Source: Chloroflexota bacterium
GTDB lineage: Bacteria; Chloroflexota; Anaerolineae; Aggregatilineales; Phototrophicaceae
DNA: 64,000 bases
Direction of reading: 5' to 3'
Assembly (NCBI GenBank): GCA_011525385.1
Contig: WTGF01000053.1
Span: forward strand, 26,953-90,952
Part shown: positions 7,957 through 31,582 of the stretch, piece by piece
Layout: every line of letters starts with the position of its first letter
Position numbering within the stretch: the first letter of the stretch is position 1
Notes under the pieces: generated by a model
Database searches by the model: none
What the model saw: the letters and a program-made list of their open reading frames with translations, nothing else
Told to the model about the DNA's origin: nothing
Made by a program: the position numbers and the translations under genes

Positions 7957-8137
7957 GGTAGTGTATCCTTTTCGGTTGAAACAGGAAATTTTAACCACCG
8001 AGGGGCGCGTAGACACAACCCTTCGACACCGAGAGCACCGAGAATAATTAATCTTACAGTATTGTTGCTCTCCGTGTTCTTTGCGGATTTGTAGTGAAAT
8101 GAATTATTTCAATTTCAACCGACTTCGATACACTTCC
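7957..8137 (+). repeat. MITE-like repeat family A, copy A1
   Basis: Left end GGTAGTGTATCCTTTTCGGTTGAAAC; right end TTTCAACCGACTTCGATACACTTCC (imperfect TIR); internal CACCGAGA tracts. Confidence 0.75.
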
Positions 8138-8233: not shown

Positions 8234-10810
8234 ATGACTAGCGAATCTGAATTGGCGGATACCGAGTTGGCGCAACGACATACACCCAAGTCATTGGACG
8301 AGATTGAGCGCGAGGAGTTTGCGCCTCGGTTTACGCCCTGGGATGATGAAGCGGAATTGGTGGCCTTGGACGATTCGCCTATTACCCATCCACAAGGGAT
8401 GGAAGTTCTGTCACTTGATGGCCCTTGGCAATTGGCGGAAGGCGGCAAACTTGCTGATCGGCTGGGCGGGCAGTGGAGCGATGCGATCCCGGCCAATGTT
8501 CCCGGCAGCGTGCATACAGCACTGGTTGCGGCCGGCATCATTCCCGATCCAACCTTTGGGCTTAACCAGGCGATCGCGCGCGAGGAGAGCTTCAAAACCT
8601 GGTGGATGCGTTGCGATTTCCCATGTCCGGCCAAGGTCAGAGGCGATGCGCTCATGTTTGAGGGCGTCGCTAACCGCTGCACAGTTTGGCTCAACGGAAA
8701 GATGCTGGGCGGCCACGAGGGCATGTTCGGCGGCCCCGATTTTGATATCGCCGGACTCCTGCGGGCGAACAATACGCTGATCGTTCGGCTCGAACCCATA
8801 CCATTTGAATCGTGGAATCCCAGCGGCACCAATCCGGACAACAACGGGAGTTGGATGGGAACGGTGGTATTCAACAACGTCTATGGATGGCACTATTCAA
8901 ATTTACCCTCGCTGGGCATTTGGCGGTCGGTGTCGATACGGGACAAGCCGCCAGTACGACTGGAGCACCCATTTGCCACGACGGTAGATGCTCAAGCCGG
9001 GATTGTTGAGCTTTCGCTTCGGTTTGTCGGTAAGTCCGAAGGATGGTCGGGAATGCTTTCCGGCAGCGTCGAACCGGAAAACTTCGCTGGAAGGCGATAC
9101 TCATTCAAGTATCGGGTCGATTCCGATACTGTTGCGCTCAAGAAGTCTTTGCGATTCGGGGTACCCGATCCCAAATTATGGTGGCCGGTTGACATGGGAG
9201 ATCAAAATCTTTATCGGGTCACCTTGTCATTTTTGCCTGACGGTGGCGGAGAGGCGGACGTTCATTCCTTCACGCTTGGATTGCGTACGATTGCGATGGC
9301 GCCTCTGCCACAGGGACCGCAGCCGGATCTGTACAATTGGACCTTCCTCATCAACGGCGAGCCAATGTTCATCAAGGGCAGCAACTGGTGCACGCTTGAT
9401 CCGCTAATGGATTTCCGCCGGGAACGTTATGAGCGCTTCATCAAGCTGGCAGCCATGCAGCACATACAGATGCTACGCCCCTGGGGAAGCGGCATGCCGG
9501 AAACGGACGATTTCTACGATCTATGCGATCGCTACGGCATCCTGGTGATGCAAGAATGGCCAACAGCCTGGAACAGCCACGTGACGCAGCCATACGGAAT
9601 GCTGGAAGAGACGGTGCGACGCAACACCCTGCGCATGCGCAATCATCCCTCGCTGGCGATGTACGGCGCCGGCAACGAATCCGGCCAGCCCTTCGGACCG
9701 GCGATCGACATGATGGGCCGCTTGAGCATTGAACTGGATGATACGCGGCCCTATCACCGCGCCGAGCCCTGGGGTGGCAGCCTGCACAACTACAATTGCT
9801 ATTGGGGGCGCGAGCACCTTGATCACAACTTGAATATGACGTCGATCTTTTTTGGCGAATTCGGCTTGGCTTGCAGCCCGGTTTACGAATCCCTCAGGCG
9901 CTACCTGCCGGAGGACGAGCAAGACTTGTGGCCGCCGCGCGAGGACGGCGCTTTTGCCTACCATACGGCTGTCTTTAACAAGTACGAAGGCGTGTCTCGT
10001 TTGATGCAATACGCGAATTATTTTGTTCCGGCGGACTGTACTCTGGAAGACTACACGGTGGGTTCGCAGCTTTCACAAGCTGTGGGCATTCGGCATACGC
10101 TGGAGCGCGCGCGTTGCCGCTGGCCAGAGAGCACGGGCGCCCTCTATTACAAGTTGACGGACAATTATCCGGCGGCGTCATGGGCCTGTGTTGACTGGTA
10201 TGGCGCGCCTAAAATCGGCCACTACTTTTTCCAGGATTCCTTTGCGCCACTGCATGCCTGTGTGTTATTCAAGAGCCTGAACAATATGGGAACGCCTTTG
10301 GACTTGCCGGTCTATCTGCTGGATGACGCCGCGGAGCTGGCGAGCGCTTCCTGGCGAGTGCTAGTCCGAGCCTATGACGGGGGACTTCAGTTGATAAAGA
10401 GCGCGGACTTTGAGGGACGAGGCGGCGTCGCAAGTCCACATGCGCTGGGCGATTTCAGCTTGAGTTATGCGCAGACAGATACAGTCCCGCTATTTGTGGT
10501 GGCGGAAGTGTGGAAAGAGGGCGCGCTGGCGGATCGCACGTTTTACTTCGTCAATTACGAGGCGGACAAGGGCAGCTTGTTCAACCTGCCGCGGAGCGCC
10601 TTGCGTTTGGAGGTTGATGGCAGCAAGGCAGTCGTCTCCAACACGGGCTCGCTGCCCGCGGTGGCCGTCCACGTCTCGCGGCCCGGGCATCTCGATATCT
10701 TTGAAGTCTCCGACAACTACTTTTGGCTGGATGCCGGCGAGAGCGCAACTCTTGAGGTGAACAGCGCTGAGGGGCTGACAGTTGGAGCCTGGAATGCAAG
10801 CGCGGGATAG
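8234..10810 (+). CDS. Glycoside hydrolase family 2, beta-mannosidase-like (paralog 1)
   Basis: GH2 sugar-binding and catalytic domains. Acid/base motif AGNESG and nucleophile motif FGEFGLACSP. ATG at 8234 has GGAG upstream; the track ORF starts at 8222 (TTG). Confidence 0.88.
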   Translation: MTSESELADTELAQRHTPKSLDEIEREEFAPRFTPWDDEAELVALDDSPITHPQGMEVLSLDGPWQLAEGGKLADRLGGQWSDAIPANVPGSVHTALVAAGIIPDPTFGLNQAIAREESFKTWWMRCDFPCPAKVRGDALMFEGVANRCTVWLNGKMLGGHEGMFGGPDFDIAGLLRANNTLIVRLEPIPFESWNPSGTNPDNNGSWMGTVVFNNVYGWHYSNLPSLGIWRSVSIRDKPPVRLEHPFATTVDAQAGIVELSLRFVGKSEGWSGMLSGSVEPENFAGRRYSFKYRVDSDTVALKKSLRFGVPDPKLWWPVDMGDQNLYRVTLSFLPDGGGEADVHSFTLGLRTIAMAPLPQGPQPDLYNWTFLINGEPMFIKGSNWCTLDPLMDFRRERYERFIKLAAMQHIQMLRPWGSGMPETDDFYDLCDRYGILVMQEWPTAWNSHVTQPYGMLEETVRRNTLRMRNHPSLAMYGAGNESGQPFGPAIDMMGRLSIELDDTRPYHRAEPWGGSLHNYNCYWGREHLDHNLNMTSIFFGEFGLACSPVYESLRRYLPEDEQDLWPPREDGAFAYHTAVFNKYEGVSRLMQYANYFVPADCTLEDYTVGSQLSQAVGIRHTLERARCRWPESTGALYYKLTDNYPAASWACVDWYGAPKIGHYFFQDSFAPLHACVLFKSLNNMGTPLDLPVYLLDDAAELASASWRVLVRAYDGGLQLIKSADFEGRGGVASPHALGDFSLSYAQTDTVPLFVVAEVWKEGALADRTFYFVNYEADKGSLFNLPRSALRLEVDGSKAVVSNTGSLPAVAVHVSRPGHLDIFEVSDNYFWLDAGESATLEVNSAEGLTVGAWNASAG

Positions 10811-10964
10811 CCGGGGTATCCTTTTCGGTTGAAACAGAAGATTTTAACCACCGAGGACACCGAGACCACCGAGAAAAAGCCAAGGGTATAGTTGCTCTCC
10901 AAGTTCTTTGCGCAATTGTGGTGAAATGAGTTGATTTGATTTCTACCGAATTCAGTACAGTAGC
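10811..10964 (+). repeat. MITE-like repeat family A, copy A2
   Basis: Near-identical to A3: GTATCCTTTTCGGTTGAAACAGAAGATTTTAACCACCGAGGACACCGAGACCACCGAGAAAAAGCCAAGGGTATAGTTGCTCTCC... Confidence 0.8.
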
Positions 10965-11078: not shown

Positions 11079-12956
11079 TTAGCAGTCAGGCATCATGTAG
11101 ATCAACTTGTGGCTCGACCAGGATCCGTGATGGAAGGGACCATCGGGCACGTTACCAATGCAATTTGACCACATGTGAACGATACCCGGACTCTCTACAT
11201 GGGTGAAGAAGGGCACGTTGTCGTAGAGCCAGGCATCCCGGGCGGCGGAGGCGGCGATGAAGCCCTCGCTGCCGGGCGGGTGGCTGACCAGGTCTTCATG
11301 GATGGCGTAGAGTTCCTTAATCCATTCCGGCGGTTCCTCGCCCGTTTCGTTATCCGCATACCATTGTCCCCATAGCGGGCCCCAATTGTAGTTGGGAATG
11401 TAATCGGGGAAGGTGTGCGCGGCGAAGAGCGGCGCCGTGTTCCAATTGATCCCGGCTTGCATCTCGTTCGAGGCGCGGCGTTCGCCGAGCAAGGCGCTAT
11501 CGATATTGCGGAAGTCGGCGTTGATGCCGACATCGCTCAGGTAATCGACGAAGAAGGGAGCGGGGTCGGAATAATCGCCGCCGCCGGCGCCGACTTCGAT
11601 CATGATTGAGAAGGGCTGGCCGCTCGGCGACAGGCGATAGCCATCGGCATCGCGTTCCGTCATGCCCATCTCGTCAAGCAGCGCGTTAGCGGCGTCGACA
11701 TCGTAATCGCTGGGCGCGATGGTCGGCAGACTGGCTTGACCGAAGTAGATGGCATTGATCAAGTCTTCACTGTCAATCGCTAGCATCACCGCATTACGGA
11801 AACGGCTGTCCCAGGTGACCTCCCGCCAGGTTTCGTCGGCGAAGGTGAGATTGATGTGGAACATGCGCGAGTCTTTGTTGGGATAGACATGGGTGGCGTA
11901 GTTGCCGTTCTCCTCGTTTTCGATGAAAAGCGGCAAGTTCGCCAGGCTGGTTGTCCAGAAGTAGTGGACGTCGCCGGCGAACATCATCAATTCAGCGGTT
12001 TCCATGATCCCCCACTGATTGATAACGGCGCGGCGTCCATCGAGATAGGGCAGTTGATTGCCATCGGCATCGACGGCGAAGTAATAGGGATTGCGACTGG
12101 TCACCACTTCTTCTTCCGGACCTTCGACGCGGACCCAGGGACCCAACTGCGGGAAGCCGATGGCAGCCAGGCTGTTCTCCGACCAGCCGCTGACATCCAT
12201 CTGGTTGAAGAGTTCAAACCAGCCGGCGAGTCCGCCTTCTTCGACCGCGGCGGCGATTTCATCGGCGTCGCCATATTCGGTATGGTATTGAGCCAGGAAG
12301 TGTTTGGGCTTGATGATGTCGAGGTAGCCAGTACCCAGGCTCACCAAACTGGCGGCAAAACCGGGATAGGGTCCGTCGAATACGAACTTGAAGGTGGTAT
12401 CATCCAGGATCTCGAGCGTTGCCGGGGCGCCGGTGGGCACGTTGCCACTGCGCAAATAGGTCGGTACGGCGGGGCGCAACTCCTCATTGCTGATCACGTC
12501 TTCGTAGGCGAAGCGCACGTCCTCAGTTGTGACGGGCGCGCCATCGGACCATTTGTGCCCGGCGCGCAGCTTGAAGGTGTATTCGCTGGCATCGTCGCTG
12601 ATGGTGAATTCTTCAATGACATTCGGCGCCAGCGTGTTGTCATCACGGTTCTGCGTATTGAAGAGCGTTTCTTTCATGACCACGTTGTTTTGCCAGGTCA
12701 TGAGGAGTTCGCCACCGTAGACGCCGATTTCCGGCACGACGAATGACTCGGGCAGCAGGACGCCACTGGACAGAACCAGCGGGTTATCCGGCAAACGGTC
12801 GCAGACGCCCGGCAAGTCGCCGGCGGCGACCATCTCCGCCAGCATAGGCGCTTCGTTATACATACAGTCCTGCGTGATGCCGGAGAGCGCGCCCGGACCT
12901 ATGATCAATAGGGACACAATCAAGAAAAGCAATAGTTTGCGAAATGGAAATGACAT
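11079..12956 (-). CDS. Family 5 (Opp/Dpp-type) ABC transporter substrate-binding protein
   Basis: GAPVTTEDVRFAYEDVIS... and full SBP_bac_5 layout. Preferred start MSFPFRKLLLFLIVSLLIIG (signal peptide) at 12956 with AAAGGAG upstream; the track ORF reads further upstream into a repeat. Confidence 0.9.
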   Translation of the reverse strand: MSFPFRKLLLFLIVSLLIIGPGALSGITQDCMYNEAPMLAEMVAAGDLPGVCDRLPDNPLVLSSGVLLPESFVVPEIGVYGGELLMTWQNNVVMKETLFNTQNRDDNTLAPNVIEEFTISDDASEYTFKLRAGHKWSDGAPVTTEDVRFAYEDVISNEELRPAVPTYLRSGNVPTGAPATLEILDDTTFKFVFDGPYPGFAASLVSLGTGYLDIIKPKHFLAQYHTEYGDADEIAAAVEEGGLAGWFELFNQMDVSGWSENSLAAIGFPQLGPWVRVEGPEEEVVTSRNPYYFAVDADGNQLPYLDGRRAVINQWGIMETAELMMFAGDVHYFWTTSLANLPLFIENEENGNYATHVYPNKDSRMFHINLTFADETWREVTWDSRFRNAVMLAIDSEDLINAIYFGQASLPTIAPSDYDVDAANALLDEMGMTERDADGYRLSPSGQPFSIMIEVGAGGGDYSDPAPFFVDYLSDVGINADFRNIDSALLGERRASNEMQAGINWNTAPLFAAHTFPDYIPNYNWGPLWGQWYADNETGEEPPEWIKELYAIHEDLVSHPPGSEGFIAASAARDAWLYDNVPFFTHVESPGIVHMWSNCIGNVPDGPFHHGSWSSHKLIYMMPDC

Positions 12957-13095
12957 GTGGTTCTCCTTTGGCAGAGACTCTGCTCGCTCAAACGTGGACA
13001 TTGGGACCGGCCTGCAAATGTGCCATTGCAGGTCATGTGTGCTATTATCCTTAATGAGAGGCTGTAAGTCAAATTGTTCGGCGGCTCGGTGGTTC

Positions 13096-13249
13096 GGTAG
13101 TGTATCCTTTTCGGTTGAAACAGAAAATTTTGACCACCGAGAACACCGAGACCATCGAGAAAAAGCCAAGGGTATAGTTGCTCTCCAAGTTCTTTGCGCA
13201 ATTGCGGTGAAATGAGTTGATTTAATTTCAACCGAATTCGATACGGTAC
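13096..13249 (+). repeat. MITE-like repeat family A, copy A3, with 9-bp flanking direct repeats
   Basis: TIR ends GGTAGTGTATCCTTTTCGGTTGAAA / TTTCAACCGAATTCGATACGGTAC; flanked by CGGTGGTTC at 13087-13095 and 13250-13258. Confidence 0.82.
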
Positions 13250-13299
13250 CGGTGGTTCAGTTTAGAGGCGTAAGGCGAGCCACCAGCCGGGGGAAATAA

Positions 13300-14304
13300 A
13301 TGCTTTACATAATTGTGCGCCGGATTTTTATTCTTATTCCTATGCTGGTCCTGCTGTCGATGATCTCTTTCATCATTATCCAGCTCCCCCCCGGCGACTA
13401 CCTGAGCAGCTATGTTTTGAGACTGGAAAGTCAAGGTCTGGTCGTTGACGAAGCCGAGATTGCACGCCTCGAACAGCGTTACGGCTTGGGCCAACCGCTG
13501 ACCACGCAGTATTTCCGCTGGATGCGCAACTTCATCGTCAATGGCGATCTGGGAAGGTCCTTCGGCTCCTACGGCAGCAGCTACGACAACAAGCCGGTTT
13601 CCGACATCATTATGGAACGGCTGCCGGCGACGATGATCATTTCGATCGTTTCGACGATCGTCGTTTGGGCGATCGCTATCCCGATCGGCATTTATTCGGC
13701 GACGCATCAGTATTCACTCATGGATTATCTGTCGATCTTCATCGGTTTTATCGGCTTGGCTATCCCCAATTTTCTCTTCGCAATCATCATCATGTGGATC
13801 GTCTTCGCGCAAACCGGTCATGCCGTCACGGGCTTGTTTTCCCTGGAATACCGCCACGAGCCCTGGTCGATCGCCAAGATCATTGACATGTTGAAGAATG
13901 TCTGGGTGCCGGTGCTGGTGCTTGCCACGGCGGGAACGGCGGGCTTGATCCGCGTGATGCGCGCCAATTTGCTGGACGAACTGAACAAGCAATATGTGGT
14001 CACGGCGCGGGCGAAGGGCTTGAGCGAAAGGCGGCTGCTTTGGAAATACCCGGTGCGTATCGCCTTTAATCCCATCTTCAGCACGATTGGCTGGCTGCTG
14101 CCAGCGATGGTCGGCGGGGAAGCCCTGGTGTCCATAATCCTCAACTTGCAGACTATCGGACCCGTGCTGCTGACGGCTGTCTTGCGACAGGATATGTATC
14201 TGGCGGGCAGCATCATTATGATCCTCAGCGCCTTGACGCTGATCGGAACGCTGATTTCCGATATTGCGTTAGTCTGGCTCGATCCAAGGATTCGTTATGA
14301 CTGA
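13300..14304 (+). CDS. ABC transporter permease, DppB/OppB family
   Basis: MLYIIVRRIFILIPMLVLLSMISFIIIQLPPGDY...; RANLLDELNKQYVVTARAKGLSERRLLWKY. Confidence 0.92.
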   Translation: MLYIIVRRIFILIPMLVLLSMISFIIIQLPPGDYLSSYVLRLESQGLVVDEAEIARLEQRYGLGQPLTTQYFRWMRNFIVNGDLGRSFGSYGSSYDNKPVSDIIMERLPATMIISIVSTIVVWAIAIPIGIYSATHQYSLMDYLSIFIGFIGLAIPNFLFAIIIMWIVFAQTGHAVTGLFSLEYRHEPWSIAKIIDMLKNVWVPVLVLATAGTAGLIRVMRANLLDELNKQYVVTARAKGLSERRLLWKYPVRIAFNPIFSTIGWLLPAMVGGEALVSIILNLQTIGPVLLTAVLRQDMYLAGSIIMILSALTLIGTLISDIALVWLDPRIRYD

Positions 14305-31203: not shown

Positions 31204-31498
31204 GGTCAAGCGATCCCTAACCGGTGGAAAGCATGACCAACCACAAAGACACAAAGAACACAAAGTAAATGAGGCAATTCTCTTTGCGCTCAGCAAGACC
31301 AAGTTGGTCGTGCAAAAAAGCGAGCCTTGTAGGGGCGACCAATCTGGTCGCCCGCTGCCGCCGCGACTTGTGGTTTCGGGCGACATACTATGTCGCCCCT
31401 ACACGCCACGTATTTTTTGCATTACTTACTTGCACTTGCTTTTGTGCATTTGTGGTGAAATGAGTTGATTTAATTTCAACCGACTTCGATACATTACC
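31204..31498 (+). repeat. MITE-like repeat family A, diverged/composite copy A4
   Basis: Right end TGTGGTGAAATGAGTTGATTTAATTTCAACCGACTTCGATACATTACC matches A1/A3; left end diverged (GATCCCTAACCGGTGGAAA); extra 76-bp IR inside. Confidence 0.65.
31328..31403. repeat. Nested 76-bp inverted-repeat element
   Basis: 12-bp perfect terminal IR TGTAGGGGCGAC / GTCGCCCCTACA enclosing hairpins GGGCGACCA-ATC-TGGTCGCCC and GGGCGACATA-C-TATGTCGCCC. Confidence 0.8.
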
Positions 31499-31582
31499 GG
31501 GAATCGTGAAAGCCACGACATCATAGCTTATCCGGGCTTGCTTGCTGTATAATGAACTTCGTGTCACGCGCGCGTACATTGG

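Follow-up and report, generated by a model that had tools for sequence, protein, structure and literature searches.

A 155-bp MITE between divergent ABC transporter genes of an uncultured Chloroflexota shares its ends with an IS256/Mutator-type insertion sequence

The locus and the boundaries of the element

The window, the whole 64-kb stretch of DNA analyzed here, contains a divergent pair of sugar/peptide transport genes, encoding a solute-binding protein (SBP_bac_5; positions 11079 to 12956, minus strand) and an ABC permease (BPD_transp_1; 13300 to 14304, plus strand). Consensus scanning of the gap between them finds two overlapping promoter-like sites, both undisrupted: an extended -10 site directed toward the permease (GTGCCA-17-TATTAT; 13020 to 13048, plus strand) and a site directed toward the solute-binding protein gene (TTGACT-17-GATAAT; 13044 to 13072, minus strand). 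The conserved block that they form (13020 to 13072) is recognizable in 16 out of 16 orthologous gaps. Between this block and the permease lies a MITE of 155 bp (13096 to 13250, plus strand), which falls within the size range of roughly 50 to 1000 bp, has no coding capacity of its own, and contains no promoter or terminator by consensus scan. A mechanical open reading frame that starts the solute-binding protein gene at a TTG within the MITE (13169) instead of at 12956 was rejected as spurious; it would add a false N terminus.

The boundaries of the element follow the register of the family consensus. In this register the termini read GGTAGTGTATC...GATACGGTACC, and the left terminal inverted repeat (GGTAGTGTATCCTTTTCGGTTGAAA; 13096 to 13120, plus strand) agrees with the right one (GGTACCGTATCGAATTCGGTTGAAA as read on the minus strand; 13226 to 13250) at 20 of 25 positions. 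As family members end in GGTA...TACC, the element includes the C at 13250 as its final base. The target-site duplication is the 8-mer GGTGGTTC, with its left copy at 13088 to 13095 and its right copy at 13251 to 13258 (both plus strand). A scan of the window for pairs of exact 8-mers, spaced by 100 to 260 bp, around a terminal inverted repeat with 17/25 or more matches returned the locus at 13088 to 13258 as its sole match, and three shuffled windows returned none. The 9-mer version of the scan found no such match in the 64-kb window, because a 9-mer reading misregisters the inverted repeat.

These boundaries refine the sequence-only reading, which had recognized a MITE-like element with terminal inverted repeats and a bounding direct repeat, both of which are real. 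Its length of 154 bp becomes 155 bp by the family consensus, and its inverted repeat of about 24 bp with 19/24 matches becomes 25 bp with 20/25. The 9-bp direct repeat that it reported (CGGTGGTTC; 13087 to 13095 and 13250 to 13258) is present in the letters but was rejected as the target duplication: the C at 13087 equals the last base of the element by chance, and 8 bp is preferred because the flanking duplications of the family peak at that length.

Empty sites in related genomes and the permease leader

The orthologous gaps that separate the divergent solute-binding protein gene from the permease gene were retrieved from related genomes. The gap of relative L128 reads ...GGTGGTTCAGTTTAGAGG..., with a single copy of GGTGGTTC and near-identical surrounding sequence, and once its two flanks are joined the window aligns with the relatives straight through the insertion point. 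The element is also absent from eight further orthologous gaps (L125, L126, L129 to L131, and L133 to L135). The gap spans 344 bp in the window, as opposed to 179 to 182 bp in the six uninterrupted relatives measurable from both start codons; compared with L126, whose gap is 181 bp, the window has 163 bp more, exactly the element plus one duplication (155 + 8). L124 and L126, two of the genomes nearest by permease sequence, both lack the element here.

The sequence-only reading had suggested that the insertion could have reshaped the promoter region. This holds for the spacing to the permease start, and does not hold for the promoter block itself, which lies intact upstream of the insertion. 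From the end of the block to the permease start codon there are 61 to 67 bp at empty sites and 225 bp in the window, so that with the insertion the permease leader grows from about 62 bp to 225 bp and the promoter block is spared. The leader of L132 carries a different element, 240 bp long, whose ends are again of the GGTA type and whose duplication matches at 7/8 positions, and the permease leaders of L124, L127, and L139 contain about 40 to 150 bp of extra sequence without GGTA ends.

Copies of the element and their flanking duplications

The genome, which is in 131 contigs and 94% complete, is probably a metagenome bin (its nearest named relatives are all MAGs), and the genome-wide tallies given below come from searches and from stretches that were fetched. 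When the element was compared with its own genome by BLAST, 56 matches were returned, of which about 20 are near full length at 70 to 93% identity, and the 25-bp terminal pattern has 140 matches in the 4.9 Mb, with 0 for the reversed control. Near-identical copies sit at unrelated sites, and six copies in this genome are mutually 96 to 100% identical, which suggests recent movement. Matches to the element were found in 24 of the 61 genomes of the order searched, all within one of 21 genera.

The window itself holds four copies in all. Besides the element in the transporter gap, these are a copy that is 93% identical over 150 bp, with decayed ends (10810 to 10964, plus strand), a 181-bp variant (7957 to 8137, plus strand), neither of which has a recognizable duplication, and a partial copy that retains the right end only (31441 to 31500, plus strand). 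A subfamily with GGTA ends and a length of about 200 to 240 bp (L040, L042, L045, and L132:4704-4943) has a different core, which contains GTAGGGGCGAC...GTCGCCCCTAC palindromes.

Among 71 two-ended elements from this genome and its relatives, an exact 8-bp flank duplication is present in 24 and a duplication of at least 7/8 in 37, compared with 0.4% and 0.9%, respectively, in a shuffled-flank control. Exact duplications at each other length from 4 to 12 bp occur in 0 to 2 of the 71, so that the only peak is at a constant 8 bp. Decay, nesting, or loosely matched ends would account for the 34 elements that have no recognizable duplication (at least 7/8).

A presumed transposase-bearing partner

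A congener contains a decayed insertion sequence of 1246 bp with the same terminal repeats and an 8-bp duplication (GACTTGAC), and its reading frames match Pfam Transposase_mut (PF00872, E = 1.3e-27, 97 bits against a cut-off of 21). The IS256 model is the best match in NCBIfam and stays below its cut-off (114 bits against 150) with the decayed 376-amino-acid fragment used as the query, for which reason "IS256/Mutator-type" is the safe name. Internally deleted derivatives of this insertion sequence also occur, one of 554 bp in the genome under study, with both transposase termini between the same repeats, and one of 389 bp in a congener.

The assembly of this genome has seven left and seven right insertion-sequence ends, all located at contig ends and all stopping about 50 to 55 bp inside the element, a pattern expected of a collapsed repeat. 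The outer flanks of these ends pair into seven perfect 8-bp duplications next to 25-bp ends, an indication that this genome has the full-length insertion sequence in seven copies. The full-length interior is missing from the bin, and we infer an intact transposase from the contig ends only. The ends and the duplication length are common to the MITE and to the Transposase_mut insertion sequence, and the IS256/Mutator-type insertion sequence is likely to be the mover of the MITE; that particular transposase would have moved the copy at 13096 to 13250.

In another family of the order, a pair of 1387-bp copies that are 99.9% identical has GGTAGTGTATCTTTCGCGGTTGAAAT ends, which are of the same type, and a related transposase. 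The two insertion sequences (L361 and L370; G039:C1:220861-221805 and 227353-228297) lie about 6.5 kb apart in opposite orientation. Neither is bordered by matching flanks, but the 8 bp to the left of one copy (CGAAAAAT) recur next to the right end of its partner, an arrangement that an inversion or a composite event involving both copies would leave.

Transposition, which the sequence-only reading had proposed from the repeats, is thus supported by 8-bp duplications at other copies and by empty-site alleles at the exact place in relatives. The additional copies for which it proposed a search exist in the genome, their flanking duplications are present with a length of 8 rather than 9 bp, and a relative that carries a transposase shares both the terminal repeats and the 8-bp duplication.

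The interior module and a second MITE family

The interior of the element contains a 9-bp-periodic module (ACCACCGAG-AACACCGAG-ACCATCGAG; 13133 to 13159, plus strand) that is part of a broader dispersed repeat. The core pattern ACCACCGAG-nnCACCGAG-nnCACCGAG has 76 matches in this genome and 0 for the reversed control, and by the search used 16 of the 76 follow GGTA-type ends. Many of the remaining matches sit in elements with CAGGGCAATCGCATCAAA ends, and 30 of these elements, examined in fetched stretches, show an exact 10-bp duplication in 13 cases and an exact 9-bp duplication in 4, with none at the other lengths from 4 to 13 bp. These elements resemble a second MITE family in the same genome, mostly 215 to 265 bp long and with the same core (L273, L300 to L302, L311, L316, L322, L344, L349, L350, and others). 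In L334 (269-485 onward), a GGTA-ended MITE abuts the end of a CAGGG-ended one, the result of either an adjacent insertion or a nested one.

Five further genera of the order have the core as well, usually in the form ACCACAGAG or ACCACGGAG, and in the examples read it forms short intergenic palindromes. The core repeat ACCACNGAG and its 9-bp repeats were observed without GGTA terminal repeats in G041, G057, G051, G045, and G035 (e.g., L263, L265, and L266), and one genome among the other genera and families has 64 core matches. The 9-bp-periodic interior is therefore not specific to the GGTA-ended family, and this is the one odd feature of the element. We consider it possible, at somewhat less than even chance, that the interior is an independent palindromic family (TTAACCACnGAGnnCACnGAGnnCACnGAG...) that travels as cargo, within one genome, between two or more unrelated sets of transposon ends (GGTA...GGTTGAAA, which give 8-bp duplications, and CAGGGCAATCGCATCAAA, which give 10-bp ones) and that exists by itself in other families, which would make the MITEs modular.

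DISCUSSION

The locus is best explained as a 155-bp non-autonomous transposon (MITE) inserted by an IS256/Mutator-type transposase that recognizes shared 25-bp ends, and we hold this explanation with high confidence. It draws directly on the shared ends, the shared 8-bp duplication length, the occurrence of both element types in the same genome, and the empty site in close relatives. The transposase would bind the 25-bp GGTA...GGTTGAAA ends common to the MITE and the insertion sequence, and the 155-bp element would enter a staggered cut, the repair of whose gaps would yield the 8-bp duplication. The insertion entered the permease-side leader, downstream of the conserved divergent promoter block. 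Its most likely local effect would be a 5′ leader that is 163 bp longer and contains a long imperfect hairpin, with the promoter kept. The 9-bp-periodic interior may have existed earlier as a dispersed repeat and have been captured by GGTA ends.

The palindromic, 9-bp-periodic interior invites comparison with REP/BIME-like or other selected palindromic repeats, which would act as a regulator or terminator and spread by recombination or RAYT-type activity, the more so as this genome and other families also have it without GGTA ends, in intergenic positions in the examples read. Such an origin is very improbable for the whole element, which has 25-bp ends, 8-bp duplications, and an empty site. 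Furthermore, an Rfam covariance-model search of positions 12900 to 13400 gave no match up to E = 1, no terminator was predicted, and RNA folding is only modestly better than that of shuffled sequences (z = -1.9); with an empty Rfam result and weak fold z-scores, a structured RNA was rejected.

A remnant of an insertion sequence, internally deleted and decayed in place beside a coincidental direct repeat, would be in keeping with the deletion derivatives of 554 and 389 bp. Against this, the interior contains no transposase sequence, and the same 155-bp form occurs at many unrelated sites, with several of the copies 96 to 100% identical, and must therefore have multiplied as a unit. Relatives lack the element at the site of 13096 to 13250, and these empty-site alleles, together with the independent copies, refute decay in place, to which we assign a negligible probability. 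A simple deletion derivative was also rejected as the source of the 155-bp form, for its similarity to the insertion-sequence ends stops a few bases past the terminal repeats, and the interior belongs to another repeat. Several insertion-sequence families give 8-bp duplications, and another of them could have moved a MITE with which the Mutator-type element merely shares its ends. We regard such a different mover as highly unlikely, because it is specifically copies with a Transposase_mut-type transposase, in several lineages, that have the terminal repeats of about 25 bp in common with the MITE. Insertion by an IS256/Mutator-type transposase remains the preferred explanation.

The element can be compared with several known systems. 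Like MITECca01 of Cardinium (PMC9769881), it is short, non-coding, and multicopy and shares its ends with an insertion sequence of the same genome. MITECca01 is tied to ISCca4, of the IS982 family, whereas the presumed partner here is of the IS256/Mutator type, and the interior of the 155-bp MITE is no remnant of the insertion sequence. BrickBuilt, a minisatellite MITE of Porphyromonas gingivalis (PMC4596501), likewise combines insertion-sequence ends with a tandem-repeat interior and no transposase remnant; its ends are of the IS5 type, its repeat unit is 23 bp long, and its duplications are irregular, in contrast to the 9-bp unit and clean 8-bp duplications described here, and the interior of our element is also found between a second, unrelated end-set. 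A Correia element of Neisseria is inserted just downstream of the mtrCDE promoter (PMC10969869), a position between promoter and first gene of a transport operon that the 155-bp MITE shares and from which a change in regulation is possible in principle. Correia elements belong to a different family, and any IHF site or promoter role of the 155-bp MITE would be hypothetical. The presumed partner itself resembles the IS256 family (Mutator superfamily, PF00872; NCBIfam NF033543) in its Transposase_mut domain and in its ends of about 25 bp and 8-bp duplications, which agree with the roughly 20 to 30 bp and the 8 to 9 bp of that family, but its transposase is divergent (114 bits against the 150-bit cut-off), and the 155-bp MITE encodes no transposase.

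A search of the open-access literature found no earlier description of the interior sequence, of MITEs in sponge Chloroflexi, or of IS256-derived MITEs. This MITE family of uncultured Chloroflexota (Anaerolineae) has apparently not been described before, and its likely partner is of the Mutator type. The 155-bp MITE is of an ordinary kind, and its origin is unusually well documented by a clean empty site in relatives. The repeated leader insertions at this locus (in the window, in L132, and in L124, L127, and L139) form a natural series for relating leader length to expression. The common interior poses the question of what brings the same core into unrelated MITE families; if that core is indeed cargo, transposon ends would be interchangeable around it, and it may itself be functional or mobile.
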